In this document: one piece after another, positions 9,664 to 63,945 of the stretch
How positions within the stretch are numbered: position 1 is the first letter of the stretch
How the letters are laid out: every line of letters starts with the position of its first letter
DNA from: Pseudoclavibacter chungangensis
GTDB taxonomy: Bacteria > Actinomycetota > Actinomycetes > Actinomycetales > Microbacteriaceae
Length of the DNA: 64,000 nt
NCBI RefSeq assembly: GCF_013410545.1
Contig: NZ_JACCFV010000001.1
Span: 3,921,008-3,985,007, forward strand
Reading direction: 5' to 3'
The notes under the pieces: generated by a model
The model's database searches: none
What the model was told of the DNA's origin: nothing
The model's input: the letters and a program-made list of their open reading frames with translations, nothing else
Translations under genes and position numbers: made by a program

Positions 9664-10140
9664 TCAGCGCACGTGTGCGCCGAGTGATGTGAGTGCGCGG
9701 AGGCCCGCGTCGTGATTCGCCGCGGTGTCGGATCGACAGGCATCGGCGATCACCGTGACCTCGAAGCCCAGTCGGTGCGCCGATCTCGCGGCGTGGAGGA
9801 CGCCGTGATCGGTGAGCAGGCCCGTCAGCACCACGTGCGCGACGCCCCGAATGCGCAGGTTCGTCTCGAGATCGGGGTCGTCGAACGCATCGCGGCCCGA
9901 CTTGCTGAGCACGAGCGCGTCCGCCGGCGGCGCGAGCGCGGGGATGAACCGGGCTTCCGCGGACCGCGGGTCACCGCGCTCGCCGCCGTCCGCGTCGAGG
10001 TAGCGGAGGCAGAACAGGTGGGCGCCGCGCGCACGCTGCGCGACGCGCACCCGCTCCGCACGGGTGACGACCGCCGGATCGTCGACGAGCGCGACGATCC
10101 ACCCCTGGAAGTCGATCTCGAGCAGCGCGGTGCCGGGCAT
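9664..10140 (-). CDS. Isochorismatase-like cysteine hydrolase family protein
   Basis: A 158-residue protein with the compact isochorismatase fold pattern: an early catalytic-type Asp in LEIDFQGW, a Lys in VLSKSGRDAF, and the late VVLTGLLTDHGVLHAARSA segment. At the usual nucleophile position (TDxCV in nicotinamidase-type hydrolases) this protein has Gly (TDHGV), which resembles true isochorismatases rather than Cys hydrolases. The substrate is unknown. The start overlaps the aldo-keto reductase stop (TGATG), so the two are co-translated under the MerR gene. Confidence 0.75.
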   Translation of the reverse strand: MPGTALLEIDFQGWIVALVDDPAVVTRAERVRVAQRARGAHLFCLRYLDADGGERGDPRSAEARFIPALAPPADALVLSKSGRDAFDDPDLETNLRIRGVAHVVLTGLLTDHGVLHAARSAHRLGFEVTVIADACRSDTAANHDAGLRALTSLGAHVR

Positions 10141-11138
10141 CAGTAGCGCGATCCCGCGGCGGCGGGCAGGCCGTCGAGGATCGACAGGTCGTCCGCACCG
10201 AGTTCGAGCGTCGTAGCGCCGAGATTCTCGTCGAGTCGTGTGATGCGTGTCGTGCCGGGGATCGGGATGACCTCGGGCCCCCGCGCGAGGACCCACGCGA
10301 GCGCCACCTGTGCGGGGGTCGCGCCGTGGCGCTCGGCGATCTCGCGAACCGTCTCGACGAGCCGCAGATTGGTGCGTGCGGCGTCGCCGGTGAAGCGGGG
10401 GAGGTGCGCGCGGAAGTCGGAGTCGGGGAGCGTCCCGGGGTCGAGTGCGCCCGTCAGGAAGCCGCGGCCGAGGGGAGAGAACGGGACGAAGATCGCCTCG
10501 TGGGCGGCGCACCAGCCCACGAGGTCGCCAGCCGCCGCACCGTCGGAGTTCGTGCCGACCCCGAGCGCATCACGCGTCCACAGCGACAGCTCCGACTGGA
10601 TCGCGGCGACCGGGTGGATCCCGTGCGCGGTGTCGGCCTGTTCGGTCGTGACCTCACTGAGACCGATGGCGCGCACCTTGCCCGCCCGGACAGCCTCGGC
10701 GAGCGTGCCCCAGCTCTCCTCGACGGGCACCTGCGGGTCGATCCGGTGCAGGTAGTACAGGTCGATCACGTCGACGCCGAGCCGGCGGAGACTCGCGTCG
10801 ACGGCCTCGCGCAGGTGTTTCGGGCGGCCATCGCGCTCGAGCGTCGGACGCCCGTCGACGACGTGCCCGACGAGGCCGCCCTTCGTGGCGATGATCGCCT
10901 CGTCACGACGACCGCTGATCGCTCGTCCGACGAGCTCCTCGTTGGTGCCGGCGGCGTAGGCGTCGCTCGTGTCGAGGAGGGTGATGCCGCGGTCGAGGGC
11001 GGCGCGGATGACGTCGACGCCGTCGACCGAGTATGCGTCGGCGCGTGATGTGTAGGCCCACGACATGCCCATGCAGCCGAGGCCGATCGGTGCCGTGGTG
11101 CGGCCGAGTGCGGGGATGGTTCTGGTGGGGGTGCTCAT
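10140..11138 (-). CDS. Aldo/keto reductase
   Basis: A 332-residue NADPH-dependent oxidoreductase with a TIM-barrel AKR pattern. The N-terminus carries IGLGCMGMSWAY, followed by the catalytic Asp and Tyr in TLLDTSDAYAAG, the Lys in IIATKGG and the His in DLYYLHRID. The cofactor-side segment VIPIPGTTRITRLDENLGA is near the C-terminus. It most resembles the AKR13/YakC-like group of general aldehyde and ketone reductases; the substrate cannot be told. It overlaps the MerR gene upstream (ATGA) and the hydrolase downstream. Confidence 0.9.
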   Translation of the reverse strand: MSTPTRTIPALGRTTAPIGLGCMGMSWAYTSRADAYSVDGVDVIRAALDRGITLLDTSDAYAAGTNEELVGRAISGRRDEAIIATKGGLVGHVVDGRPTLERDGRPKHLREAVDASLRRLGVDVIDLYYLHRIDPQVPVEESWGTLAEAVRAGKVRAIGLSEVTTEQADTAHGIHPVAAIQSELSLWTRDALGVGTNSDGAAAGDLVGWCAAHEAIFVPFSPLGRGFLTGALDPGTLPDSDFRAHLPRFTGDAARTNLRLVETVREIAERHGATPAQVALAWVLARGPEVIPIPGTTRITRLDENLGATTLELGADDLSILDGLPAAAGSRY

Positions 11139-11752
11139 TCGTGCTCCGTTCCGTGGGTCGTTCCGAGCGTCGTGGCCCGGGGCGCTGCGTGCGCCGTCGC
11201 GTTCGTGTGGGAGGTGCCGTCGGTGATCCGGTCGCCGATCGGCTCGGAGGCCCGCTGCGCCTTTCGCTGCGCCGCGGGCACCGGCGCGCCGTCGCAGCCG
11301 AGGCCGGCGGCGATGAGTGCGCGGTAGTGGTCGATCTTCGTGTCGAGTGCGTCGACGGCGGCGTCGATCTCGTGCCTGCGCCGCTCGAGCAGTTCGCGTG
11401 TGCGTTCGAGGACGGCGATGCGCCGGCCGTGCGTGGTCGCGCCACCGTCGAGGAGGGCGACGAACTCGCGCATCGAGGAGGTCGGCATGCCGGTCGCTCG
11501 CAACGACGCGAGCAGACGGACGAGACCCTGTTCGCGGACGTCGTAGCGACGGGTGCCGTTGCTCGAACGGTGCACGCGGGGGAGCATGCCCTCGCGCTCG
11601 TACCAGCGGAGTGTGTCGATGCTCAGCCCGGAGCGCACGGCCATCTCGGCGATGCCGATAGGGGCGGTGCCGTCGGTGTCCCGGGAATCGGCGGGGGCCG
11701 GTGAACGCCGATGCGTGACGACGGCGGGGCGGCGGGCCGAAGTGATCTCCAT
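11135..11752 (-). CDS. MerR-family transcriptional regulator
   Basis: A 205-residue regulator. A 30-residue leader precedes the MerR winged HTH (GIAEMAVRSGLSIDTLRWYEREGMLPR, then RRYDVREQGLVRLLASLRATGM). A coiled-coil helix (RRIAVLERTRELLERRRHEIDAAVDALDTKI) and a polar tail follow. The start at 11752 (MEITSARR) avoids reading through the 57-bp hairpin. It is the first gene of a three-gene operon and most likely controls the aldo/keto reductase. No metal-binding cysteine cluster is visible, so an organic inducer is more likely; that is an inference. Confidence 0.9.
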   Translation of the reverse strand: MEITSARRPAVVTHRRSPAPADSRDTDGTAPIGIAEMAVRSGLSIDTLRWYEREGMLPRVHRSSNGTRRYDVREQGLVRLLASLRATGMPTSSMREFVALLDGGATTHGRRIAVLERTRELLERRRHEIDAAVDALDTKIDHYRALIAAGLGCDGAPVPAAQRKAQRASEPIGDRITDGTSHTNATAHAAPRATTLGTTHGTEHE

Positions 11753-50664: not shown

Positions 50665-52121
50665 GGCTCTTCGGACATTCGGTGGGGGTCATGGGGTGAG
50701 TCCGCCGGCGGCGAGGAGCATGCGGAGCCGGTAGTTGTCGCGGTTGCGGAAGCCGCGGGCGAGGCGGCGGTGGAGCTCGATGATCCCGTTCACGGCCTCA
50801 GTGCCGCCGTTCGATGATCGTCCGGTCGTGAAGTAGGCCAGGAACGCTGCCTGCCAACGGCGGAGGGTGCGGCCGAGGCGGGCGATCTCGGGGATCGGGC
50901 AGGTGTGGAATGTGTCGACGACCTTCTCGGCGATCCGCCGCCCCTCGACGAGGTCCTTCTGGTGGTAGGCGGAACGCAGTTGCTGGGCGCACTGCCATGC
51001 GACGAACACCTCGTCGTGCGCGGGGTCGGCCTCGATCGCTGCCGCGAGCCTGGTCCGCTGCTTCTCGGTGAGGTTCTCGGCGCCGGCGCGGAGGATGGTC
51101 TGGATCCCGTAGAGCGGGTCGCCGGTCCGACCGCGATGCCCGAGGGTGTCTTGCTGGACGCGGCGGCGGACCTCGTCCACAGCGGCGGTGCCGAGCTTGA
51201 CGACGTGGAACGCGTCCAGCACGGCCGTGGCGTCTTCGAGCTTGTCGTCGATCGCGGTCTTGTAGCCGGCGAACGGGTCAAGAGCTGCGACCTGCACGTT
51301 CTTCCGGAACGCTTCGCCGCGGTCTGCGAGCCAGGACGCGTAGGCCTTCCCGGAGCGGCCGGGCACGAGGTCGAGCAGCCTGGCCCGCGTCTTTCCGGTG
51401 CTGTCGCGGCTGAGATCGACCATCCCGGTCAGTTCCTTCGGGCCGCGCTTTCGGGGGTCGACGTGATGCCAGATGTGCTCATCGACGCCGAGGGTGGTGA
51501 CGTTCTCGAACCGGGACTCGTCCTCAGCCAGTTTGACCAGCTCGGGCTCGACGGCCCGCCACACCGTCTTCCACGACGTTCCGAGCTGACGGGCGATACC
51601 GTGCACGGTGGCGTGCTCGCGGCGCAGCTGCCCGATCGCCCAGCCGACGGCGCGCGTGGTGATCGACCCGCGCCGGGCCACCAGACCCGGGAGCTGCTCC
51701 ACGAACGTCCGTCGCACGCATCCCACCTCGTCGCACCGCCAGACCCGCTGCCGCCACACGATCCGCACCCGCGTCACGCCGGGCACATCATGAAGCACCC
51801 GTCGGCGACGTCCGCGGCCGGTCGCGACGACCCCGCACGACGGGCAGCCGGTCGGTGCCGCCGGGCTCGAGACGGTCACGATCAGCAGCCCGTCACGGCG
51901 GTCAACGTCCTCGACATGGACCCCATCGAGGCCGAGCAGCAAGTCGCAGCGGGAACACGGGCAGGCGGCGGAGCACGCGTCAGCGCACCCCGAACTATCG
52001 TGAGACACGTCGAGGTCCTCGGTTGGAGCAGCAGTTGGCGCTACTGATCCTCGGGGACCTCGACCCCTACCCGCCGACCATCACCCGGCGAGCCTCACCC
52101 CCACCGAATGTCCGAAGAGCC
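50665..52121 (-). mobile_element. ISL3-family element, type A, copy 2
   Basis: 1457 bp, with terminal repeats GGCTCTTCGGACATTCGGTG at both ends and an exact 8-bp target duplication CGATAAGA (50657-50664 and 52122-52129). It sits inside the type B transposase gene, so it is the youngest resolvable insertion. Removing it and one duplication restores the type B frame. Confidence 0.95.
50689..52008 (-). CDS. ISL3-family transposase (type A, copy 2)
   Basis: A 439-residue complete transposase, identical to copy 1 except for one visible residue near the C-terminus (RNRDNYRL). Zinc-ribbon, HTH and DDE_Tnp_ISL3 regions are all present, with GTG start and intact ends. It is the most likely active transposase in the window. 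Confidence 0.94.
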   Translation of the reverse strand: MSHDSSGCADACSAACPCSRCDLLLGLDGVHVEDVDRRDGLLIVTVSSPAAPTGCPSCGVVATGRGRRRRVLHDVPGVTRVRIVWRQRVWRCDEVGCVRRTFVEQLPGLVARRGSITTRAVGWAIGQLRREHATVHGIARQLGTSWKTVWRAVEPELVKLAEDESRFENVTTLGVDEHIWHHVDPRKRGPKELTGMVDLSRDSTGKTRARLLDLVPGRSGKAYASWLADRGEAFRKNVQVAALDPFAGYKTAIDDKLEDATAVLDAFHVVKLGTAAVDEVRRRVQQDTLGHRGRTGDPLYGIQTILRAGAENLTEKQRTRLAAAIEADPAHDEVFVAWQCAQQLRSAYHQKDLVEGRRIAEKVVDTFHTCPIPEIARLGRTLRRWQAAFLAYFTTGRSSNGGTEAVNGIIELHRRLARGFRNRDNYRLRMLLAAGGLTP

Positions 52122-52543: not shown

Positions 52544-54604
52544 CTACTCCGAGTTCCCCTCGTTCAAGGTCCGAAGATCGTCGACGGTGAGCTGCTGCTC
52601 GAGGTCGGCCACGTCACCTTCGAATCGCACTCCCTCGCTCATCAATACGTCCTTCGGGTTGCGAGTGTCCGTTGGATCCGTCCACCTGAATCCATCAGCG
52701 ACGTGTCCATTCCAGGAGAGAACGCGATAGGCATGCGGGCAGCCATGATGCTGTTGGAGATGTCCCGCGAGGGCTTGGGCGCTCGTGCCGACGACTTCCG
52801 CAAGCAGGTAATAGCTGGTCCAACGTCCGGCGGGAAGATTCTCGAGGATGGTATGAAGCTCCGACCAGTCGAACCGCCGCCCCGCTTCGAAGTCGTGACG
52901 ATAGTTGGTCAGGATTATGGGTTCGATGATCGGTCGGGGCCAGATTTCCACCGCGTTCAACGCCAGTCGGTGAGCTCGGTCGCGGATTTGATTCTCGCCC
53001 CATTCGGGGAGCTGTCCGAGTCCCCGGTTCAGGCGGAGGGGGCTCTCCCTGAACCCGCCCTGCATGTCGCGCTTTTGCTCGAACGGACGGTCTGAGTACT
53101 CCGGGTTGTAGCCGGTGAGTGTGAGATTTCCGAGCGTATGGAGGAAGCGCTTGTGGACTGCCTGCCAGTCGACGCCAAGCGCTTCTTGCCACGTGCTGTT
53201 CGCGTTTTGTGGCATGATGTGTTCGATTGTGTACTCTGCGACTGACACGCGTTCTTTGCGACCGTGGTTCTCGAGCCTGTCGAGAAGATATGTGCGACGC
53301 TGGAAGCTATAGATGTCCGAAGTGGTGAGGGCCTCGATGAACTCCTCGTCGGTCGGGAAGCGTCTGTAGTCGGGGAACGTGAGGAGCCGAGCCGCAATGC
53401 TTTCTGCGTACCTCGCGTCGTCGATGATCGTCGTGATCGTCGCCATCGTGTTGTTGAGGCTGTTGGTCGGGATTCGACAGGCGGCGCGGCGGAACACGTA
53501 TGAAATGACGGTGTCGAGAATCTCGATGAACTGATCTCGATCGAGAATGCCGGCCGCGTAGTCCGCGTAGAGTCGGAGTTGTAGCGGATATGCGACATCG
53601 GTGAGCTCGTCAAGATCCGTGAAGCGGTGTGCGAGATCCGTGTCCTGCTCCTGGCCGAGCGCCATTGCCGCATACCAGCGGGCGTATCGCGCGAGGTCGT
53701 CGACCAATGATGCGCGCGTGACGCCCAATGCAAACTGCTGGGACGCGTAAGCTTTGAACGCATCGTAGATGTCGGCGCGCCGAGGAATCGTGCCGCTCGT
53801 GACGGTGAGGAAGTGGCGCACGAACTGATCGAATCGCGATGGCTCGTTGCGGAACAGTGTCTCCATGGGGAACCATTGCGACTCGTACAGCCGCTCCTGC
53901 TCCGTGGGCGGAAGATCCATGAGTACGAAGTTCCGAATGAGGTCAGCCTGCGAGAGTTTCTTGCCGGTCGCATTCATCGACTCGAACACGAGCTGGGGGT
54001 CGTCGCTTCCTCGAGTGAGCTTCACGTCGACGACCACGAGTTTGTCGAGGCCGGAGCAGATCGTTGCGAGCTCTTCGGGTGTTGCTTCCCGGAGCTTCTC
54101 GACGAAGAACGTGAAGTTCGTGAATACTCGCGAGTCCGTGGAGCGAGTCGCACCGTGCCTGATCACGTCCTTGAGCGCTTCTTTGTCGGCCTGTGTCAGA
54201 ATCAGTTTGAAGTAGGCGTCGCCCGATTCATACTCATTGGTGAGGTAGATGCCTCGGATCTTGCGTGGCGAGAAGCCGTCGATCGGCTCCTGTTGGTCGT
54301 CGGGTAGCTCGTCGAGGCGGGCCGCAAGTGCCGCGAGCAGGAGGGTGACGGTCGTGACGCGCTGTTGGCCATCGATAATGAGGTCGGGCTCGCGAGAGGT
54401 TCGTGTTCCCTCGTCGCTCTCGATATACACGATGGAGCCCGTGAAATGATTCGCCAGCCGTTCGGGACTTCCAGCGCGCTCGATGTCATCCCAAAGCTGT
54501 TCGCATTCCGTCAGATCCCACGAGTACACGCGTTGGTAGATCGGGACGACGAAGCGATGCGCCTTCTTGAGCAATTCCATCAGGTTGGTATCGACAGCTT
54601 TCAT
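52544..54604 (-). CDS. DUF262-DUF1524 nuclease (GmrSD/RloF-like) with C-terminal alkyltransferase-like domain
   Basis: 686 residues. DUF262 motifs VPIYQRVYSW (about 20-29) and IDGQQRVTTV (about 77-86), with FESMNATGKKLSQADLIRNF downstream. DUF1524/HNH-type nuclease motif YTIEHIMPQN near residue 470 and NLTLTGYNPEYSDRPFEQK after it. The last ~100 residues (LPAGRWTSYYLLAEVVGTSA, QQHHGCPHAYRVLSWNGHV) look like the winged-helix of O6-alkylguanine transferase-like proteins, without a PCHR cysteine site. GmrSD-type proteins cut modified phage DNA using NTP. The start overlaps the hsdR stop (ATGA), so it belongs to the type I operon. Confidence 0.82.
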   Translation of the reverse strand: MKAVDTNLMELLKKAHRFVVPIYQRVYSWDLTECEQLWDDIERAGSPERLANHFTGSIVYIESDEGTRTSREPDLIIDGQQRVTTVTLLLAALAARLDELPDDQQEPIDGFSPRKIRGIYLTNEYESGDAYFKLILTQADKEALKDVIRHGATRSTDSRVFTNFTFFVEKLREATPEELATICSGLDKLVVVDVKLTRGSDDPQLVFESMNATGKKLSQADLIRNFVLMDLPPTEQERLYESQWFPMETLFRNEPSRFDQFVRHFLTVTSGTIPRRADIYDAFKAYASQQFALGVTRASLVDDLARYARWYAAMALGQEQDTDLAHRFTDLDELTDVAYPLQLRLYADYAAGILDRDQFIEILDTVISYVFRRAACRIPTNSLNNTMATITTIIDDARYAESIAARLLTFPDYRRFPTDEEFIEALTTSDIYSFQRRTYLLDRLENHGRKERVSVAEYTIEHIMPQNANSTWQEALGVDWQAVHKRFLHTLGNLTLTGYNPEYSDRPFEQKRDMQGGFRESPLRLNRGLGQLPEWGENQIRDRAHRLALNAVEIWPRPIIEPIILTNYRHDFEAGRRFDWSELHTILENLPAGRWTSYYLLAEVVGTSAQALAGHLQQHHGCPHAYRVLSWNGHVADGFRWTDPTDTRNPKDVLMSEGVRFEGDVADLEQQLTVDDLRTLNEGNSE

Positions 54605-57600
54605 GGAGTCACTCCCTTGGTGTTGGCGATGTGCGAGTCGAACTCGACTCGCGGCCGTTCGTTGGCGAACCGCGGTGCCAGCGACTCCATCTGGTCCATG
54701 ACCTGCATGATCGCCTCCGGCTGCTTGTCGGGTGGGTATTTGTACTTCACGAGAAGGCGTTTGATCGATGCCCGGAGCTTTGCTCGCACGTCGTCGCGGA
54801 TGGTCCAGTCGGTGCGAACGTCCCGGCGCATCACGGCGACGAGCTCGCGGGCGATCTGGGCGAGGACGTCTTTGCCCTGCATGTCCAGCGCCGACTGATT
54901 CGTCGCGACGGCGTCGTAGAACGCGAGTTCGTCAGTCGAGAGTGGGGGAGTGAAGTGCGATCCTCGGGACGATTCGGCGGCGACTTCCTTTGCGAGCTCC
55001 ACGAGTTCGGCGATGATTTCCGCGGAGGTCAGCTGCTGGTTCGTGTAGCGGTTCATGATCTCGGCGATCCGTTCCGAGAACGTCCGCTGGCGCGTGAGGT
55101 TGCCGCGCGTGGCCGTGACACCGACATCCGTGAGCGACTTGCGCAGCGCTTCGATCGCGAGATGCGCGTTGGGGGCGCATTGGGCTTTGGCGAGGTAGTC
55201 GGGTCCAAGGTCGTCGAGTGTCAGGCGCGGCAGGCCTGCGGCATCGTAGATGTCGACCACGTCGCTGGGCGCGATGGCGTCGGCGACGAGGCCGCCGAGC
55301 AGTCGTGAAACCTCGTCTGGGATCGGCTCGTCGCGCGCCTGGCGGTCGGCGGCGTCGAACTTCGCCATCCAGACGCGCACTTCCTCATAGAACGCGATCT
55401 CCTCATGGAGTTCGACGAGACCGTCGCGCCCCGACGCGAGGGCCCAGGCTCTGGCCAGCCGTCCGGTCGCGGCACGGTATCTCGACGCGAGCCGCTCGGC
55501 GCCCAACTCTTCCGCGTTGAGCGGGTTCGATGCGTCACGGAGGTGGTTCGTTGCCATCGTGGCCGCGGTGCGCCACGCGCGTGAGCCGCCCTGGGCGACG
55601 ACGGCGCGCCACTCGCAGCCCACGAGCATTTCGCGGATCTGCGCCGTCAGCTCGGCCGCAATCGCCACTGCTTCGTCGACGTCGCGACCGATCGGTCTGT
55701 TCTCTTGATCGGTGACGGTGTACTCCGAAAGCGCCTTCGCAAGGTTGTCGGCCAGCGGCGCATAGGCGACGAGCAGACCGTCTTGCTTCCCTCGGAACGT
55801 GCGATTCACCCGGGCGAGCGTCTGCATGAGCAGCGCGCCCTTGAGAGGCCGGTCGAGGTACAGGGTGTGCAGTGGGGGAGCGTCGAACCCGGTCAGCATC
55901 ATGTCTTTGACGATCACGAGTTCGAGCTCGTCGGAGGCATCCTTCAGCCGTGCCTTGATGGCCTTATTCTCGGACTCACGCCGCACGTGATCGCTCACCG
56001 GCGGGGCGTCCGAAGCGACCCCCGAATACACGACCTTGATGCGGCCCCGGCCGAGTGCATCCGAGTGCCAGTCGGGCCGTAGGGAGATGACCGCCGAGTA
56101 GAGGCGTGCGCAGATTTCGCGGGTCCCTCCGACGATGAGCGCCTTGCCTGGCGATCCGAGGAACGGTTGCATCCGCTCGCGCCGTTCTTCCCAGTGCTGC
56201 ACGAGATCGGCAGCGAGTGTCTCGATGCGCTCGGGCGCACCGTAGACGGCGTTCACGACGGCGACGGATGCTTCGAGTCGGGCGCGTTCGGTGTCGTCGA
56301 GCCCGAGCGTGACTTCGTCGGCGGCCCGGTCGATGTCGTCTTCGCTCGCGTCCGCGGCGAACGAGACCTTGATGAGTCGGGGTTCGAAGTACACGGGGAC
56401 GGTGGCGCCATCGTCCACGGCTCGCGTCAGGTCGTAGATGTCGATGTAGTCGCCGAACACTGCTCGGGTGTCGCGCTCGGCGAACGAGATCGGGGTGCCG
56501 GTGAACGCGATGAGGGTCGCGTTCGGCAATGCGTCGCGGAGGTGCCGTGCGTAGCCATTGAGGTCGTCATAGTGACTGCGGTGTGCTTCGTCGACGACGA
56601 CGATGACGTTGCGTCGGTCGGTGAGGAGTGGATGCTGCGTTCCCGACTGCTTCTCGTGCTCGGTCAGCCCGAACTTCTGGAGCGTCGTGAAGTAGATGCC
56701 GCCCGTCACCCGGTTGCCGAGCTCGTCGCGCAGCTGGGCACGTTCGCGTACCTGCGTGGGCATTTCTGCGAGCAGCAGGCTCTGCGCGAAGGTCTGGAAG
56801 AGTTGCCCATCGAGTTCGGTGCGGTCGGTGACGACGATCACGGTGGGGTTCTTGAGTAGGGGATGGCGCGAGACGAGGTTCGCGTAGAGTTCCATCTCCA
56901 TCGACTTGCCGGAGCCCTGCGTGTGCCAGATGACGCCGGCCTTGCCGCTGGTCTGCACGGCCTGCACGGTACTGCCGACGGCCTTCGTCACTGCGAAGTA
57001 CTGGTGCGGCTTTGCGATGCGCTTGGTCAGTCCATCGGCATTCTCGTCGAATGCGGTGAAGTTGCGCACGAGTTGCAGGAAGCGCTCGGGGTTGAAGAGC
57101 CCGTTGAGTGCATCGTCGATGGGTTCGACCGACATTCCGTGTTCGACTCGCGGCTGTGCGAGCGGGTCGCCATCGTCGTCGACGTTCCAGGGGGCGAAGT
57201 GGTTGAGCGGGGTGAAGGGTGTGCCGTACTTTGCGTCGAGGCCGTCGCTCGCGAGCGTGAACACGCAGAAGCGGAACGCCATCGGAAACTCGCGCAGGTA
57301 GGTCTGGAGCTGTGCGTGCGCCGGCGCGACACCTGAGGCTTCGGAGCCTGCACGCTTCAGCTCGATGACGACCAGCGGCATTCCGTTGACGAACAGGACG
57401 ATGTCGAATCGGCGGTGGTGGTCGCCCTGTCTGATAGTGACCTGGTTGACGGCGAGCCAGTCGTTGTCGAGCACGGAGCCGAGCAGCCGCAGCCGCAGAT
57501 TCTGTTCGAGGCCGTCGCTGTCGATGTAGCTCAGTGGATAACCACTGACCAGGTACTGGTGGATGCGGTAGTTCTCGGTGATCGCGTCCTGTGAGGTGGG

Positions 57601-57834
57601 CGCGGCTATTTCGGCGATCGCCTGCTGCAGGTACTCGGCGGGGACTCCGGGGTTGAGGCGGCGAAGCGCGGCGAGCAGGCGCGGGCGTATGAGCGGGTCA
57701 TCCCAGGTGTCGCGTTCGCCGCTCCCGGGGGCGATGGATTCGCCGGGGAGCGGTCGCCAGTCGAGAGGCTCGGCGAGGGTGTCGAGCGCGTCCCGCTCCC
57801 ATGCTGCTTCGGACATGGGGTTCATGGCTTCCAT
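54601..57834 (-). CDS. hsdR: Type I restriction enzyme R subunit
   Basis: About 1077 residues from ATG 57834 (MEAMNPMSEAAWERDALDTL); ATGs at 57825 and 57816 are alternatives. N-terminal PD-(D/E)xK nuclease region FDIVLFVNGMPLVVIELKRA, SF2 helicase with Walker A WHTQGSGKSMEMELYANLV, DEAH box VIVVVDEAHRSHYDDLNGY, FTGTPI and the late LTGFDAPPLHTLYLDRPLKG and QTLARVNRTFRGK motifs. It translocates DNA and cleaves it when the target is unmethylated. The stop overlaps the DUF262 gene. The GTPase gene ends 10 bases upstream. Confidence 0.95.
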   Translation of the reverse strand: MEAMNPMSEAAWERDALDTLAEPLDWRPLPGESIAPGSGERDTWDDPLIRPRLLAALRRLNPGVPAEYLQQAIAEIAAPTSQDAITENYRIHQYLVSGYPLSYIDSDGLEQNLRLRLLGSVLDNDWLAVNQVTIRQGDHHRRFDIVLFVNGMPLVVIELKRAGSEASGVAPAHAQLQTYLREFPMAFRFCVFTLASDGLDAKYGTPFTPLNHFAPWNVDDDGDPLAQPRVEHGMSVEPIDDALNGLFNPERFLQLVRNFTAFDENADGLTKRIAKPHQYFAVTKAVGSTVQAVQTSGKAGVIWHTQGSGKSMEMELYANLVSRHPLLKNPTVIVVTDRTELDGQLFQTFAQSLLLAEMPTQVRERAQLRDELGNRVTGGIYFTTLQKFGLTEHEKQSGTQHPLLTDRRNVIVVVDEAHRSHYDDLNGYARHLRDALPNATLIAFTGTPISFAERDTRAVFGDYIDIYDLTRAVDDGATVPVYFEPRLIKVSFAADASEDDIDRAADEVTLGLDDTERARLEASVAVVNAVYGAPERIETLAADLVQHWEERRERMQPFLGSPGKALIVGGTREICARLYSAVISLRPDWHSDALGRGRIKVVYSGVASDAPPVSDHVRRESENKAIKARLKDASDELELVIVKDMMLTGFDAPPLHTLYLDRPLKGALLMQTLARVNRTFRGKQDGLLVAYAPLADNLAKALSEYTVTDQENRPIGRDVDEAVAIAAELTAQIREMLVGCEWRAVVAQGGSRAWRTAATMATNHLRDASNPLNAEELGAERLASRYRAATGRLARAWALASGRDGLVELHEEIAFYEEVRVWMAKFDAADRQARDEPIPDEVSRLLGGLVADAIAPSDVVDIYDAAGLPRLTLDDLGPDYLAKAQCAPNAHLAIEALRKSLTDVGVTATRGNLTRQRTFSERIAEIMNRYTNQQLTSAEIIAELVELAKEVAAESSRGSHFTPPLSTDELAFYDAVATNQSALDMQGKDVLAQIARELVAVMRRDVRTDWTIRDDVRAKLRASIKRLLVKYKYPPDKQPEAIMQVMDQMESLAPRFANERPRVEFDSHIANTKGVTP

Positions 57835-57844
57835 GTCTTCGTGG

Positions 57845-59011
57845 TCACTTCTTGGCGATGCGCTGTTCGGCCATTTTGCGCATGACGTCGAGGAATCCGG
57901 GCACGAAGTCGCCCCAGACATTGTCGATCGCGTCGAGATCGATCTTGCCGGTGTACACCTGCTCGCACAGGCGCATCCAGCCTTCTCCTGTTGCACCGGT
58001 GAGGGCGGCTGCGACGCCCGCATTGATGACATTGCCGGCACCGGGAATGAGGGCGAGCAGGCCACCCGCGAGCGCGCGCCCGGTGAATTGCACGCCGAGC
58101 TGGGCGAGTGCACCCGCCGAGAGCATCGTCTTGATCTCGAGGTCGTAGATGACCGCGATTCGCCCCATCATTCCGAGCTGGAGCGGCGCCAGAACGGCAG
58201 CATTCGCAACGGGAACGGGGACCGCGGCGACACCGGCGGCTGCCGCCGCGGCCACGACAACCACTTTGCGGGCCATCTCTCGTTTCCAGGGGAGGTTGAG
58301 TCGCTGGGCGATGCGAAACGCATCCTTCTCGTTGTCCGGCGAGAGTTCGAGGGTCTCCGAGACGAGCTCACCGAGGCCGTGCCCCTTGGCCTTCCCGTGA
58401 CGGTCGAGGGTGGAGGTCAGCAGGAAACGTTGGAACGGGACGTCGATCGGCTGCGCGGCGTTCTCGTCGACCGGGTTGCGGAGCCAATCGCAGAACTCTT
58501 GCGCGCTGAAGCTCGGGGTCCGTTTGCCGGTAACGGGGTTCGTGATCCAGTCGACCTTCGTCAGCACGACGATGACGGGGAGCCCTCTGCGATCGAGCTC
58601 TCGAATGACGTCGATCTCCGGTTGCTGCAGCCGGCCGGCGTGGGCGTTGACGCAGTACCACACCACCGAGATCTGCTCGATCGCAGGCCGTGCGGCGATC
58701 GTGTCGAGGCTTTCTTCCAGCAGCTGGAGGGGAAGCTTTGCGCCGAGCTCGAACCCTTCGAGGTCCCAGATGCCGAGCGAGTCGTCGTGATAGTAGTTCG
58801 CTCCGCGGGTCACGGGCAGCCCCGTACCGACCTTGGCGATGTCGCGCTCGAACACCGCATTCACCAGCGACGACTTGCCGACGCCCGTCCCGCCGAGTAT
58901 CGCCAGGTTGAACCGGCCATAGCGGGACTTTGCTCCAGTGGTCGCTTCGAAGAATGGGCGCTTTTCGAGCTCCGGAGTGGAGTCTTCGGGGTGTTGAGGT
59001 TCGATAGACAT
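57845..59011 (-). CDS. Era-like GTPase with DUF697-like membrane domain
   Basis: 388 residues. G1 LAILGGTGVGKSSLVNAVF (P-loop about 40-48), G3 DLEG in GIWDLEGFELG, G4 TKVD in VIVVLTKVDW. The C-terminal ~150 residues are Ala/Val-rich and hydrophobic (KVVVVAAAAAAGVAAVPVPV, LGMMGRIAVIYDL, ALAGGLLALIPGAGNVINAG), the pattern of DUF697/YcjF-type domains. It is predicted to associate with the membrane in a GTP-dependent way. It lies between hsdS and hsdR, 10 bases before hsdR, so it is expressed with the restriction enzyme. GTPases are not part of classical type I systems. Confidence 0.85.
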   Translation of the reverse strand: MSIEPQHPEDSTPELEKRPFFEATTGAKSRYGRFNLAILGGTGVGKSSLVNAVFERDIAKVGTGLPVTRGANYYHDDSLGIWDLEGFELGAKLPLQLLEESLDTIAARPAIEQISVVWYCVNAHAGRLQQPEIDVIRELDRRGLPVIVVLTKVDWITNPVTGKRTPSFSAQEFCDWLRNPVDENAAQPIDVPFQRFLLTSTLDRHGKAKGHGLGELVSETLELSPDNEKDAFRIAQRLNLPWKREMARKVVVVAAAAAAGVAAVPVPVANAAVLAPLQLGMMGRIAVIYDLEIKTMLSAGALAQLGVQFTGRALAGGLLALIPGAGNVINAGVAAALTGATGEGWMRLCEQVYTGKIDLDAIDNVWGDFVPGFLDVMRKMAEQRIAKK

Positions 59012-59063
59012 GTCGTTTGGCCTTTCGGGATGGGGGATTCGAAGTCAATTGTGGCGAACGTGA

Positions 59064-60251
59064 TCAGGCGCCTGCAGCGGAGGCCGCGGCCTCCGCGTCG
59101 CGCACGCGCAGCTTGCCCGACATGAGCTGGGGCAGCAGCGCGTCGCGGGTCGCGGCGAGGGTGCGGTTCTCGGCGAGTGCTGCCAGCGCTGCCCCGTGTA
59201 GTGCTTCAGCCGTTGACGCAAACATGGTCAGAGCATAATCTGACGGAACACGCACTCGGAGACGTTTGAAGTTCCCACGGCTGAGCTCGAGGAATGTGGC
59301 CCCGTTGGCCCACGATAGGAATTCGCTTCGCCGGTCATCCATCTCATGGAATAGCCACCATCTCATTCTGGCATCTCGGGGTTCGACAACGATGAAGCCC
59401 TGGTTTAGCGCGGTGGGAACGATGTTGATGGCGACTGCTCCAATTGTGGCGCGTGAGGTTAAGAGAATCGCGCCGGGAGCGAATAGCTTTGAACTGCAGG
59501 CATTCAGGCCCGCGGGTGTGAGGGTCCTTGATGTGGAGTCTAAATATGGACCCGCAAGGGTGGTAATATCGGTTGGGGTTGCCCAACGGATTTCGCCATC
59601 CCAGAATTTGGCGTTCTTTGTGCTAGGTGTTCCCCCGCCGCTGATGACTGCAAGATCCGCGAACGTGGCGCCCCAATGTGCGTCTCGGACTACTAGCGCA
59701 AACTCCGACGAAGCCAACTCTATTGCAGAGGCGGCGAGGGCGGTGTTGGCCGCGATCTTGTCGTCGAGCGCGCCCAGCACCTCGGCGATCGCCTGCTGCT
59801 CGGGGATAGGTGGGAAGTCCAGACGGATTTGCGCAATGTCCTTAACGTTCAGGCTGCTGAAGACAGCACCCACGTTCATGAGTCGATCAACCTCGGACCA
59901 CCACTGGGGACTGCGGACAGCCCAGCGAAGGAAATTCTGATCATCTTGCGTTCCGTTGGTTCGAAGCAGAACGAGGTTTTCCCCAATTGCGCAGCGTAGC
60001 CCGTCGGGTATCGGTGCTGTATCTCCGACGCGCCCACGGCGTGTGACCAGTATGTCGCCCCCAATTGGAGTGGTGCGACGATTCCACTTAATGAGGTCAG
60101 TCTCTGAGATCCTGCGCGCCTTATCGACAATCACCCTGCCGTCATGGATGTCAGGAATGGTGATGTATGGGAACCCCGAAATTTGTGCTGCTGGTGTTCT
60201 GTGCTCACAGTCAAGGACGGAAACCCCGAAGTTCGAGAGTGTTTGGGTCAT
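59064..60251 (-). CDS. hsdS: Type I restriction enzyme specificity subunit
   Basis: 395 residues with two target-recognition halves. The first (about 1-145: FPYITIPDIHDGRVIVDKAR, GDILVTRRGRVG) is followed by the conserved helical region FPPIPEQQAIAEVLGALDDK. The second (about 195-350: GGGTPSTKNAKFWDGEIRWA) is followed by a degenerate second helix ending RDALLPQLMSGKLRV. It sets the bipartite methylation site. The DNA here is visibly less GC-rich than its neighbours, as expected for exchanged S genes. The start overlaps the hsdM stop (ATGA). Confidence 0.93.
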   Translation of the reverse strand: MTQTLSNFGVSVLDCEHRTPAAQISGFPYITIPDIHDGRVIVDKARRISETDLIKWNRRTTPIGGDILVTRRGRVGDTAPIPDGLRCAIGENLVLLRTNGTQDDQNFLRWAVRSPQWWSEVDRLMNVGAVFSSLNVKDIAQIRLDFPPIPEQQAIAEVLGALDDKIAANTALAASAIELASSEFALVVRDAHWGATFADLAVISGGGTPSTKNAKFWDGEIRWATPTDITTLAGPYLDSTSRTLTPAGLNACSSKLFAPGAILLTSRATIGAVAINIVPTALNQGFIVVEPRDARMRWWLFHEMDDRRSEFLSWANGATFLELSRGNFKRLRVRVPSDYALTMFASTAEALHGAALAALAENRTLAATRDALLPQLMSGKLRVRDAEAAASAAGA

Positions 60252-61852
60252 GAAACCCGCTCCAGCTGTTCCCGCACTATCGCGGCAAGACGTGCCGACT
60301 CGGTGAATTGCGCCTCAAGCTCTGTCCGAAGTCGCGCGAGCTTTTCCTCGATCGGCTCGCCGTAATCTTCAGCCTCGGGCGCGCCGACATACCGCCCAGG
60401 CGTCAGCGCATAGTCCGCGGCCTTGATCTCGGCGAGCGAGGCCGAGTAGCAGAAGCCCGGGACATCCGCGTACTCGCCGAGCGCTGCGCTCGAATCGACG
60501 CCCCGCCACGCATGGAAGGTACCTGCGATCTTTGCGATGTCGTCCTCCGACAGTGCCCGCTCGGCGCGGTCGACCATGTGACCGAGGTTGCGCGCGTCGA
60601 TGAAGAGCACCTCGCCGGCCCGAGCGCCCTTGTCCTTTGCGAAGAACCAGACGCACACCGGAATGCCGGTCGAGCGGAACAGCTGCGTCGGCAGCGCGAC
60701 CATGCACGACACCAAGTCGGCCTCGACGATCTCGGCACGGATCTTGCCCTCACCGCCAGAGTTCGACGCCATCGAGCCGTTCGCCATCACCACACCGGCC
60801 TGCCCCCCGAGGGCGAGCTTCGAGAGGATGTGCTGGATCCACGCGTAGTTCGCGTTACCGGCCGGCGGAACACCGAAGCGCCAGCGCGGATCCTCCTCGT
60901 TGCGAGCCCAGTCCTTGATGTTGAACGGCGGGTTCGCCATCACGAAATCTGCTTGCAGATCGGGGTGCAGATCGCGGGCGAAGGTGTCGCCCCAACGCGG
61001 GCCAAGATTGCCCGAGAGCCCGTGGATAGCGAGGTTCATCTTCGCCATCCGCCACGTGCGCTCGTTGAGCTCCTGCCCATAGACGGAGATGTCGCTGCCC
61101 TCGCCGTGGTGGGCGTCGAGGAACTTCTCGGCCTGCACGAACATGCCGCCCGAACCACACGCCGGGTCGTACACACGCCCCCGTGTCGGCTGCAACACCT
61201 CGACGAGCACGCGCACGACACCCGCAGGCGTATAGAACTCGCCACCCCGCTTGCCCTCGGCGGCGGCGAATTTCTCGAGGAAGTACTCGTACACCTCACC
61301 GAGCAGGTCGCGTGCGCGGCGACCGTCGGCGCCGCTCTGCCCCTGGGCCGTGAAGCGTGCCGAGTTGAAGAGGTCGACGAGTTCACCCAAGCGACGCCGG
61401 TCGACGTTGTCGCGGTTGAAGATGCGGGGGAGTGTGCCCGAGAGCTGCGGGTTCGCCCGCATGACGGCATCCATCGCCCCGTCGATCAGCAGGCCGAGCG
61501 ACCTCTCCACGCCATCCACCGACGCGCCCTTCGCGTTCTCGGCGAGGAACCCCCACCGAGCCTTCGCAGGAACCCAGAACACGCCGCGGCCCGTGTACTC
61601 GTCGGTGTCGTCGATGAGCTCGGCGATCTGCTCAGCGTCGTACCCATCGGCGGCGAGCTCGGTGCGGATGCCCGCTCGCCGCTCGTCGAACGCATCCGAC
61701 ACGTACTTCAAGAAGACGAGCCCGAGAATGACATCTTTGTACTGCGAGGCATCCATCGATCCGCGCAGTTTGTCGGCGGCCTTCCAGAGCGTGTCTTTCA
61801 GCTCCTTCATCGTTGACGGCGCCTGCGGGGCGGCTTTCGTGGCGCGGGGCAT
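60248..61852 (-). CDS. hsdM: Type I DNA adenine methyltransferase
   Basis: 534 residues from ATG 61852. The N-terminal HsdM helical domain (TLWKAADKLRGSMDASQYKD, VILGLVFLKYVSDAFDER) is followed by the N6-adenine methylase with FYTPAGVVRVLVE, SAM motif DPACGSGGMFVQAEKF and catalytic NPPF in DFVMANPPFNIKDW. LFRSTGIPVCVWFFAKDK follows. It methylates the host site as M2S and with HsdR forms the nuclease. It starts 8 bases after the stop of the upstream methylase-like gene. Confidence 0.96.
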   Translation of the reverse strand: MPRATKAAPQAPSTMKELKDTLWKAADKLRGSMDASQYKDVILGLVFLKYVSDAFDERRAGIRTELAADGYDAEQIAELIDDTDEYTGRGVFWVPAKARWGFLAENAKGASVDGVERSLGLLIDGAMDAVMRANPQLSGTLPRIFNRDNVDRRRLGELVDLFNSARFTAQGQSGADGRRARDLLGEVYEYFLEKFAAAEGKRGGEFYTPAGVVRVLVEVLQPTRGRVYDPACGSGGMFVQAEKFLDAHHGEGSDISVYGQELNERTWRMAKMNLAIHGLSGNLGPRWGDTFARDLHPDLQADFVMANPPFNIKDWARNEEDPRWRFGVPPAGNANYAWIQHILSKLALGGQAGVVMANGSMASNSGGEGKIRAEIVEADLVSCMVALPTQLFRSTGIPVCVWFFAKDKGARAGEVLFIDARNLGHMVDRAERALSEDDIAKIAGTFHAWRGVDSSAALGEYADVPGFCYSASLAEIKAADYALTPGRYVGAPEAEDYGEPIEEKLARLRTELEAQFTESARLAAIVREQLERVS

Positions 61853-61860
61853 GTCGATCC

Positions 61861-63884
61861 TTACTGAGTGGATGCCGCGGGGAGGACCGCGGCATCGGGG
61901 TGTTCGGGGACGTGGGGGTTGGGGGTGAGAGCCACTGCTCCAGCGGCGACACCGCTCGCGAGGAGCTCCGCGTACCGATCGAGTTTGGCAGCTCGGTCGA
62001 GGAGTGCGTCGCGCCGCGCAGCGATCTCGGCCAACGCCCCCGAAGAGGAGTGATCGCTCGCGGGGAAACGCGTCGGAGCAGCCATCGGTTCCACGCGCCT
62101 GGCCCGGCGGCTTGCCCGATGATGTCGATCGCGATGAGTTCGGGAACGAGCCCACCAGCGTCACCAGCCGTGACGCGCAGCACGCGTGCGGTATACCCGA
62201 CGATCTTCGAGCCCTCGACATCGACCCACGCGGCAGCGGTCGGGCCTGTACGGAAGATCACGTCGCCCGGCTGTGTGAGGGCTGCTGACGGGTGCAGCGT
62301 CGCGAACGCGAACTGATCAACACGGGTGCTGCCGATTGTGCCCGGATCGTCGAGATCGGCGGCTGACACCACGATCAATCCCTCAGTGCCGTGCAGGGTC
62401 GAGTCGAGCCGTGTTCCCGGCACCACTCGCAGATGGCCGTCGCGGACCGCGTCGGCGACCGCCACCGAGGAGCGGGGCGAATCAGTAGCGGGGATGACTC
62501 GAAGTGGTTCGATGTCGCCGCGCACCGCATCGGCGGTCGTATCGAGCAAGGCCGGAAGCTCGTGCGCATCCCGCGGAACGCGTTGCGTTGCGGGCGAGGG
62601 CATCGAACCAAGGATCGAGCCGCCGCGCGCCAACAGGGTCGACGTGCGCACGGGCCGGGCGAAGCGGAACGCGTGCGCACGCACCTCGCCCCGCGTGCCG
62701 AGGCTCGCGAGCAGATCGGAGACGAGGTCCGCTCGTGCGGCACTCGTGAGGGCGACGTCGGTGAGGTCCGCGACCAGCGTGAATCGCTCGCTGATCGTGA
62801 CCTGCGCCATCGGCGCACCCAGCACCCAGAGGGCCAGCGCTTCTCGCGGGGTGCTCTCAACGAGGCCAGGGGTGAGGCGCGCGACGCCACGAATTCGCCC
62901 AGTACGCAGGATGTCACTCCGGACGAGTTCTGCCGCCGGGTCGAGGCCGTCGACCATCGCTCGTGCCGGGCCGATCACGACAGCTGAATCCAGCGCGCCC
63001 ATTCCCAGCGCGACGTCGTCGATCGCGCGAAGCATGGCTACAGCATCGTCACCACGACCGGCCGGCACCCGAGCCACCACAACCGACCGGGATGCTTCGC
63101 GCGCGTCCGGGGCCGACAACCAGCGGCCGTCCGTGACCAGTCTGCGTCGCGAGCGGCGGGCGTCCGCTCCAACGGGCAGCGAGAGCTCGGCCTCGTCGCC
63201 GAGTTCTTCGGCGAGTGCTGCGGTCAGCTCAGCATCGTGTGGGTCGAGCACCGCCGTCACATCGTCACCACCGTCAGTGGCGTGCAGTACGAGCGCGCGG
63301 GTCGCCTCAGCGACGAGCTCGATCACGTCGTCCGCCAGATGGCCGTCGGAGCCCGCCGGGCGCAGAGAAGTCGCGCGACGTCGAGCGACGAGCGCAAGTG
63401 CGCCCGATGGGGAGTATGCGGCATCGATCAGGAGCTCGGCGTAGCTCAGCCAGTCCGCGCCGCGCTCGGCGTGCGCCTCGAGTTCCGAGCGAACGTAGTC
63501 GTCCTGCGGGTCGGTGTCTGCCGCGACCGTCCGCAAGGTCGCGGGGGAGAGGTCGACGAGTGCACCGCGCTGCGAATAGAGCGTGATGAGGGCTTCGATC
63601 TCAGCGACGGACTGTCGGTGCGAGAAGGAGAACCCGGGCGGCGTGGCCGCGGCCGCAGCGTCCGCCCGCGCCTCTCGATTGTTGCCATGCTCAGTGCGCG
63701 TGAGCCACTCGGCAACTTGTGCCGCGTCGAACAGCATTCGCCCGCCGCGCTCGTCAACGGCGCACGGAAACGGGACCGCAGCCGCCGCGAAGCGCGTGCG
63801 CCACATCGACACGACGGGTCGCTGCACCTCGGCCAGCCGGGCAATGCCGGCCAGGTCGATGAGGAGCGACGGATTCGAGGTCAT
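61861..63884 (-). CDS. HTH / methylase-like / target-recognition protein, apparent frameshift near 62087
   Basis: About 674 residues once one base is added near 62085-62089. N-terminus: MerR/AlpA-like HTH (LAGIARLAEVQRPVVSMWRT). Middle: a region following N6-methylase secondary motifs (ELVRSDILRTGRIRGVARLT, ALALWVLGAP) but with no DPACGSG or NPPF/Y that I can find. C-terminal third: HsdS-like recognition region (ALTQPGDVIFRTGPTAAAWV, YTARVLRVTAGDAGGLVPEL), then a coiled coil (LAEIAARRDALLDRAAKLDR) typical of S-subunit ends. It is the first gene of the operon. A DNA-binding regulator, or a second specificity component, is suggested. Confidence 0.72.
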
Positions 63885-63927: not shown

Positions 63928-63945
63928 TGATAAGCGGGGTTATCA
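63928..63945. promoter_or_regulatory. Inverted repeat upstream of the defence operon, possible operator
   Basis: TGATAA-GCGGGG-TTATCA, a 6-6-6 inverted repeat 44 bp upstream of the first operon gene and in a locally AT-richer stretch. It could bind a controller, perhaps the HTH protein encoded next to it. No promoter hexamers can be assigned with confidence. Confidence 0.4.

Follow-up and report, generated by a model that had tools for sequence, protein, structure and literature searches.

A methyltransferase-like protein, predicted to be inactive, as probable controller of an actinobacterial type I restriction operon with a variable cargo slot

A window of 64,000 nucleotides from Pseudoclavibacter chungangensis (positions 3,921,008 to 3,985,007 of contig NZ_JACCFV010000001.1) carries a type I restriction-modification (RM) operon in which hsdM, hsdS and hsdR, all with their core motifs, share the minus strand with three further genes. 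From 63884 to 52544 the order is a methylase-like gene, here called X, then hsdM, hsdS, a GTPase gene, hsdR and a DUF262-DUF1524 gene. We think it likely that this operon combines a fixed core, X-hsdM-hsdS-hsdR, with a slot for variable cargo and has X as a dedicated controller acting at a palindrome. To judge from its sequence X is probably a transcriptional controller devoted to the operon, and we infer that it binds DNA. It is regarded as a dedicated controller because a single helix-turn-helix (HTH) protein is paired with a single palindrome, which lies in that protein's own promoter and is repeated before hsdR where hsdR has been displaced.

X is a fixed component of a distinct actinobacterial type I subfamily with the core X-hsdM-hsdS-hsdR. 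In an order-level sample of 297 genomes, with up to four candidates scored per genome, X is present in 26 (in G188 by a 53-residue stretch only) and hsdM is found at E <= 1e-100 in 35. X stands upstream of all 25 hsdM copies with 62-100% identity, and no X match is present in the 11 genomes whose hsdM copies show 51-58% identity. A further set of 80 named X loci is the best 80 of 211 relatives confirmed by a profile search of GTDB representatives. In 74 of these hsdM follows X within 2.5 kb, which puts X at the head of the operon, as expected of a type I controller. For the methylase-like gene, these counts bear out the recurrence next to hsdMSR that the initial annotation of the window had set as its test. 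Of the six remaining loci, L158 and L164 both end with the contig, L157 is cut by Ns and L175 has a broken X; in L163 an hsdM-like frame lies at a distance of 3 kb, and no hsdM was found at L141. The hosts are mostly Micrococcales, and also include Rhodococcus, Mycolicibacterium, Propionicimonas, a metagenome-assembled genome of Pseudonocardiaceae and one genome labelled Sporosarcina (L132), possibly a contaminated record, which was retained. In a phylum-level sample of 396 genomes X is full-length in three (G000, G050, G621) and partial in G537, seven others have matches to the HTH only, and G621 carries an HTH-only protein besides X. Among viral contigs 63 stretches fitted a pattern for X and none was confirmed.

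The palindrome is a strongly conserved feature of the region in front of X. Two words, GATAACCC (54 of 81 loci, 0.33 expected) and GGTTATCA (48 loci), are enriched in the 200 bases upstream of X and together form TGATAA-N6-TTATCA. Scored out of 12 in 81 upstream regions, those of the 80 loci and of the window, the palindrome reaches at least 10 in 78, 77 of them with a spacer of 6. With all spacers of 4 to 11 allowed, shuffles reach this score in 8 of 810 cases; none of 80 windows of the same length inside X does. In the window the palindrome is perfect and is the only match at two or fewer mismatches (0.07 expected). The regions below 10 are those of L155, L165 and L168; in the last two the start was misplaced by a broken X, and sites with an exact core lie further upstream. 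After correction of these two starts the spacer is 6 in 79 of 81 regions and 5 in L163, so that X has a conserved candidate site in its own promoter, as a controller should. Across the 79 sites GATAA/TTATC is invariant at seven of ten positions and present in 78 of 79 at the other three, a regularity that, unlike the shuffle control, is partly by construction, since likeness to the pattern was what selected the sites. A second set of 23 regions, which shares at least eight loci with the 80 and is not independent of them, gave 22 scores of at least 10 and one of 9. A further word, ATTGGGGG, is also enriched in the 200 bases upstream of X (25 loci, 0.73 expected).

No match of at least 10 to the palindrome lies before the hsd genes in any of 11 operons that lack X. 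Elsewhere in such loci, L212 has a match of 11 at the end of hsdS or beyond it, and L213 has one past hsdR. Five HTH-methylase homologues of X, described below, have no match of at least 10 upstream (best 7). By a hand tally, 21 of 25 genomes with X contain the exact core GATAAN6TTATC, and the other four carry imperfect versions at X that score 9 to 11 of 12; the backward control pattern was found in 29 of the 297 genomes.

The palindrome appears to be repeated where long cargo cuts hsdR off from the promoter at the head of the operon. This was examined in the 61 loci that have hsdM and also hsdR downstream, several of them cut inside or just after hsdR, with hsdS-hsdR gaps measured between the ends of tblastn matches rather than of open reading frames (ORFs). 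A match of at least 10 lies in the 500 bases before hsdR in nine of the 21 operons with a gap of at least 2 kb (L108, L115, L128, L134, L136, L145, L156, L166, L167), and in none of the 17 with a gap of 0.5-2 kb or the 23 with less. Shuffles of these hsdR-upstream regions reach 10 in 0 of 420 cases for the class of at least 2 kb and in 6 of 1220 for all classes. All nine sites start at a similar place, 92-137 bases ahead of the scanned end; a tally of exact cores before hsdR gives two loci.

X is a protein of about 620-830 residues. The copy in the window has no match in Pfam (E up to 0.1), PADLOC or NCBIfam (E up to 0.01), and a Pfam search with 24 members of the family gave two weak N6_Mtase matches (best E 0.014) and two to HTH_17. 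The HTH-only matches of the phylum sample led to five proteins that share the layout of X (from G453, G655, G621, G318 and G485; L204 and L205, where no ORF fitted the search pattern, and G338 lie outside this comparison). All five have DPACGxG, plus NPPY, HPPF or DPPA, and are predicted methylases. An alignment of 72 X proteins matches them by hhalign over 617 columns (probability 99.6, E 1.7e-23); left out of it are L153, L157, L165, L168, L169 and L175, which are interrupted or cut by Ns, L164 at a contig end, and L171, whose X of 831 residues has insertions. The predicted structure of the X of Gulosibacter sediminis (L100, 656 residues; pLDDT 89.3, pTM 0.71) finds adenine DNA methylases in Foldseek, with 7eew best (E 1.5e-11) and then HsdM, PacII, BpuSI, M.TaqI and CamA, at low TM-scores (0.19-0.34 by query length). 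Fold and full-length homology both place X with the N6-adenine DNA methyltransferases.

The catalytic motif IV, [NDS]PP[YFW], is missing from X. None of the 72 proteins has N, D or S before PP at the motif place, which holds residues such as VARVP; PP follows Y, F, L or V in 13, and two chance SPPW lie just beyond. X is, by this motif, a protein of N6-methyltransferase fold that is predicted to be inactive, and an active methylase was rejected on the absence of the catalytic residue from all 72. The initial annotation had made the methylase-like protein a functional part of a composite anti-phage system; with its catalytic residue lost and a palindrome conserved at its promoter, a regulator fits better than an additional effector. 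There are 24 invariant columns among the 72. Mean pairwise identities were compared in those 52 of the 80 loci where the ORFs of the four core genes are all of sufficient length (L100 is outside this set). Of five parts of X, none is better conserved than the winged HTH (50%), and the part that resembles a target recognition domain (TRD) stands at 46%, compared with 28% for HsdS, 78% for HsdM and 69% for HsdR. Since conservation is even across X in this way, its recognition would be fixed rather than variable; a subunit that follows specificity was rejected, as the TRD-like part is not hypervariable like HsdS.

The X of the window is frame-broken near residue 600. Its frame stays open to 61632, within hsdM, and past about residue 600 it no longer fits the family. 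The expected C-terminus is encoded in another frame ending at 61861, as shown by its similarity to the C-terminal ends of the L101 (E 1.6e-9) and L100 (E 3.5e-8) proteins. A real break and a sequencing error are both possible; intact copies occur in relatives.

The slot between hsdS and hsdR varies from operon to operon. In 23 of the 61 operons the gap is below 500 bases. It is at least 500 in the other 38, and an ORF of 100 residues or more is present in 37 of these. Among the 96 such ORFs called mechanically in these 37 slots (one is a piece of hsdR, with HSDR_N) are DUF1016/YhcG nucleases (15), 5'-nucleotidase-like proteins (8), HipA (5), Abi_2 (3), Fic (3), M78 peptidases (2) and many unknowns; further cargo includes AlbA_2, DUF4041-T5orf172 with HTH_17, NYN, ParA-like and Ltp-like lipoprotein genes. 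Some operons without X also have hsdS-hsdR gaps, so the slot is not peculiar to the X subfamily. The 5'-nucleotidase-like cargo is recurrent (L084 3781-5244, and the slots of L113, L114, L115, L136, L145, L147 and L167) and is possibly a nucleotide-depleting effector. At L075 an Ltp-type 'host cell surface-exposed lipoprotein' (9900-11141) is the only cargo called in the slot; Ltp-type lipoprotein domains are associated with superinfection exclusion.

The GTPase was expected, from the initial annotation, to recur beside hsdMSR, and this is not what the genomes show. Relatives occur in 27 of the 297 genomes, the window's own included. Of the places in the 26 others, eleven were read widely (L066 and L086-L095) and ten have no hsd match within 15-18 kb; in L066 a 35%-identical copy stands divergently beside X, outside the slot. 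The remaining relatives have no hsd match within flanks of 1.5 kb at most. The GTPase lies in the slot of one of the 80 X loci, that of G. sediminis, where a Fic gene comes after it. In the window and in that locus it therefore has the position between hsdS and hsdR of an embedded guard. It does not belong to the anticodon nuclease family of PrrC, and its matches are only to GTPase, other P-loop or GTP-binding families. It looks like an exchangeable cargo gene, probably a companion defence or growth-arrest effector. In the other loci read, its relatives lie among unrelated genes, except at L088 (252-16474), where the neighbours are a DUF262 protein, an MTES_1575 helicase-nuclease and a large MrfA-type helicase and there is no hsd match. 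Possibly L088 is a further defence locus in which this family of GTPases is employed; L089 looks similar, with a neighbour that is DUF262-like by eye.

In the window and in two of the 61 operons (L106, L165) hsdR is immediately followed by a DUF262-DUF1524 gene. Relatives at E <= 1e-80 occur in nine of the 297 genomes, and none of four other places examined (L096-L099) adjoins a close hsdR, although L099 has weak hsdM and hsdR matches nearby. The gene is a sporadic companion, and its product is probably a nuclease of the GmrSD type that acts on modified phage DNA. A link to type I systems and a role against modified DNA had been proposed for it; both are plausible, and not new, from what is described of published relatives, RloF and TgvAB, embedded in type I loci (PMC4619093, PMC11411939). 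The co-occurrence counts do not support the GTPase and the DUF262 protein as conserved partners of the operon.

A mechanism consistent with these findings can be proposed. X shares full-length homology with HTH-N6-methyltransferase-TRD proteins and has lost the catalytic residue. A dimer of X would bind TGATAA-N6-TTATCA before its own gene through the winged HTH, and would also bind before hsdR where long cargo splits the operon, so as to set modification and restriction together. Repression of its own promoter, as in the known type I repressor RptR, seems likelier than activation. The GTPase rides as cargo at the hsdS-hsdR place that is used by TgvAB and DarTG2 in other hsd operons.

Several observations weigh against this proposal. 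The palindrome could be bound by another protein, and the linkage of X to one hsdM clade could also stem from common inheritance. The window's own X is broken, and X is interrupted in five of the 80 relatives (L153, L165, L168, L169, L175); since four of these keep hsdM, X is not strictly needed, and the controller may be lost repeatedly or be switched on and off. A motif I-like stretch is left in 35 of the 72 X proteins by a loose pattern, and X may still bind cofactor. Twelve of the 21 operons with a gap of at least 2 kb have no match of at least 10 before hsdR, and the distance from palindrome centre to X start varies from 18 to 171 bases (median 78, the two misplaced starts left out). L155, with the order R-X-M-S, has no good site before X and scores only 9 before hsdR, a match that could arise by chance alone because 129 of 810 shuffles reach 9; the X-less locus L207 likewise has a 9 about 200 bases before hsdM. 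Exact GATAAN6TTATC is also found in 54 of the 272 other genomes (G188 included there), and the genome of the window has a second exact copy besides the one at X. This second match, GATAAGCATATTTATC (L182 1501-1516; G000:C1:2129827), is identical in G160 and G050 and has a transposase-like stretch nearby, by eye.

Other roles for X were considered against that of a dedicated controller. X might be sensor and repressor in one: its dead methylase-TRD body would mimic the HsdM-HsdS unit, read the state of the restriction enzyme or bind phage anti-restriction DNA mimics meant for HsdM, and free the palindrome once the enzyme has been titrated. The enzyme and the effectors in the slot would both be induced on infection, and the type I operon would thus contain its own decoy alarm; we give this a small chance. 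It is also improbable that X is a fourth structural subunit, a dead M with half an S, which modulates the assembly, DNA binding or activity of HsdM2HsdS and leaves the palindrome to another regulator. X does have the fold of HsdM and other methyltransferases joined to a TRD, its C-terminal helix is weakly like that of HsdS (1yf2, E 0.12), and over the 52 operons its distances track those of HsdM and HsdR (Spearman 0.70 and 0.74) and not those of HsdS (0.26). Such co-divergence is, however, also expected from co-transmission alone, and a structural subunit leaves unexplained the pairing of X with the palindrome, the second copy before a displaced hsdR and the winged HTH as the best conserved part of X.

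The initial annotation had favoured a single composite anti-phage system including X, the GTPase and the DUF262 protein. The tight packing and short overlaps in the window, the return of the GTPase to the same slot in G. sediminis and the company of a GTPase relative and a DUF262 protein with helicases at L088 agree with this. The co-occurrence counts do not support one machine of all six genes: the GTPase is in the slot in 1 of 80 loci and DUF262 directly after hsdR in 2 of 61, other cargo occupies the slot, and 23 of the 61 operons have a gap of less than 500 bases, so that we hold a composite system to be very unlikely. We give still less credence to a reading in which the palindrome serves as core promoter or RNA element and X, as a decayed methylase, persists by hitch-hiking. 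The broken X of the window and of 5 of the 80 relatives would suit decay, and the palindrome half-site resembles a -10 hexamer. Against a promoter or RNA element stands the spacer of exactly 6 in 79 of 81 regions, and the centre of the palindrome is not self-complementary; an RNA hairpin was rejected, as the inner two pairs are complementary in 17 and 19 of 79 sites, below the 30 and 38 expected from the column composition. Hitch-hiking is difficult to reconcile with the retention of X with hsdM in 25 of 25 cases and with 24 invariant columns in 72 proteins.

The features of the operon are given in Table 1. The six minus-strand genes and their order are as originally annotated, with new coordinates for hsdM, hsdR and X. 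The start of a 657-residue hsdM ORF is spurious and the real ATG is at 61852; HsdR has 1077 residues from the ATG at 57834, instead of the 1170 of its ORF, and shows D...ELK, GSGKS and DEAH. Three junctions of 10 bases or less had been noted and are indeed present, namely ATGA overlaps of 4 bases at hsdM/hsdS and hsdR/DUF262 and a gap of 10 between the GTPase gene and hsdR; the gap between hsdS and the GTPase gene is 52. In the GTPase, MMR_HSR1 scores above the Pfam cut-off, DUF697 is below it, and LeoBC (PADLOC) is weak. The DUF262-DUF1524 protein matches PADLOC Orf5 (2.4e-169) and also HEC-06, and its two domains and its motifs DGQQR and EHIMP (EHxxP) place it in the GmrSD/RloF class.

Table 1. 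Coordinates of the operon and its proposed operator in the window.
Feature	Position	Strand	Details
Palindrome TGATAA-N6-TTATCA, proposed operator	63928..63945	.	centre about 52 bases 5' of the X start codon
X residues 1-601 (winged HTH, helical part, dead N6-methyltransferase fold, TRD-like domain)	62082..63884	-	start at 63884
X, other-frame stretch with the family's C-terminal helix	61861..62160	-	ends at TAA 61863-61861
hsdM, 534 aa, ATG start	60248..61852	-	Pfam N6_Mtase 2.7e-110, HsdM_N; DPACGSGG, NPPF
hsdS, 395 aa, two target recognition domains	59064..60251	-	Pfam Methylase_S, two stretches
hsdS-hsdR cargo slot, one GTPase gene inside	57835..59063	-	slot comparison among relatives
GTPase, 388 aa	57845..59011	-	MMR_HSR1 and DUF697-like C-terminus; G1/G3/G4 = GGTGVGKS, DLEG, TKVD
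hsdR, 1077 aa, ATG start	54601..57834	-	HSDR_N, SWI2_SNF2, T1RH-like_C; TIGR00348 above cut-off
DUF262-DUF1524 (GmrSD/RloF-type) nuclease (predicted), 686 aa	52544..54604	-	GmrSD_N 1.3e-32, GmrSD_C 5.3e-27

The G+C content is 60-66% from the DUF262 gene to hsdM, 68-69% in X and 66-75% elsewhere in the window. An ISL3-family transposase gene (50689-52008) lies directly downstream of the operon and separates it, with its lower G+C content, from the high-G+C chromosome. The last base of the window is the last of the 3,985,007-base contig. A DUF2130 gene (L085 12-1226) starts 12 bases into the same contig and, if the contig is circular, would be divergent to X at a distance of about 130 bases.

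The safe entry of type I restriction genes into a new host is an old question. For PrrC, the place between hsdS and hsdR is known, and SsoII, whose methylase offers a comparison with X, is a type II system. M.SsoII is a DNA methylase whose N-terminal region regulates its own RM system, as X is proposed to do, and is described as an active cytosine-5 methyltransferase with a methylation site (PMC3978073, PMC3874152). X differs in being of the N6-adenine class, inactive by motif and in the service of a type I system. Accessory defence genes embedded in hsd loci are on record for PrrC, RloF and TgvAB (PMC3874165, PMC12707154, PMC4619093, PMC11411939, PMC2610378), and RloF and TgvAB are reported between hsdS and hsdR (PMC4619093, PMC11411939). 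Unlike these, the slot of the X operons varies within one subfamily, holding a DUF1016 nuclease, 5'-nucleotidase, HipA, Fic, Abi_2 or GTPase gene, and the DUF262-DUF1524 gene of the window stands after hsdR rather than in the slot.

Controllers of type I operons (RptR, HsdC) and embedded cargo (PrrC, TgvAB, DarTG2) are thus known already, as far as these sources describe them. In the open PubMed Central literature we found no description of an inactive HTH-methylase controlling a type I operon. RptR is a repressor of type I RM islands in Gammaproteobacteria; like X it is the first gene of its operon and has conserved palindromic sites in its own promoter, and its operons too carry a defence module, DarTG2, between hsdS and hsdR (PMC12255303). 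By the same description RptR is a 9-kDa all-helical protein that binds 6-bp TAGCTA repeats, whereas X has about 620-830 residues, a winged HTH, a dead methylase fold and a TRD, one candidate 18-bp site with a spacer of 6, and a home in the Actinomycetota. HsdC, from type I RM operons of Mollicutes, is likewise a dedicated controller encoded in the hsd operon and acting on its promoter, as is predicted for X; it is described as of the C-protein type, with direct repeats GTGTTAN5, and some homologues are fused to methylases (PMC5282649). If our reading is correct, a pseudo-methyltransferase controller with a well-conserved and readily recognisable palindrome would be a third solution, found in Actinomycetota, beside those of RptR and HsdC. 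The palindrome would give a handle for finding regulated restriction operons, and the hsdS-hsdR slot a list of candidate phage-defence genes in the same operon.

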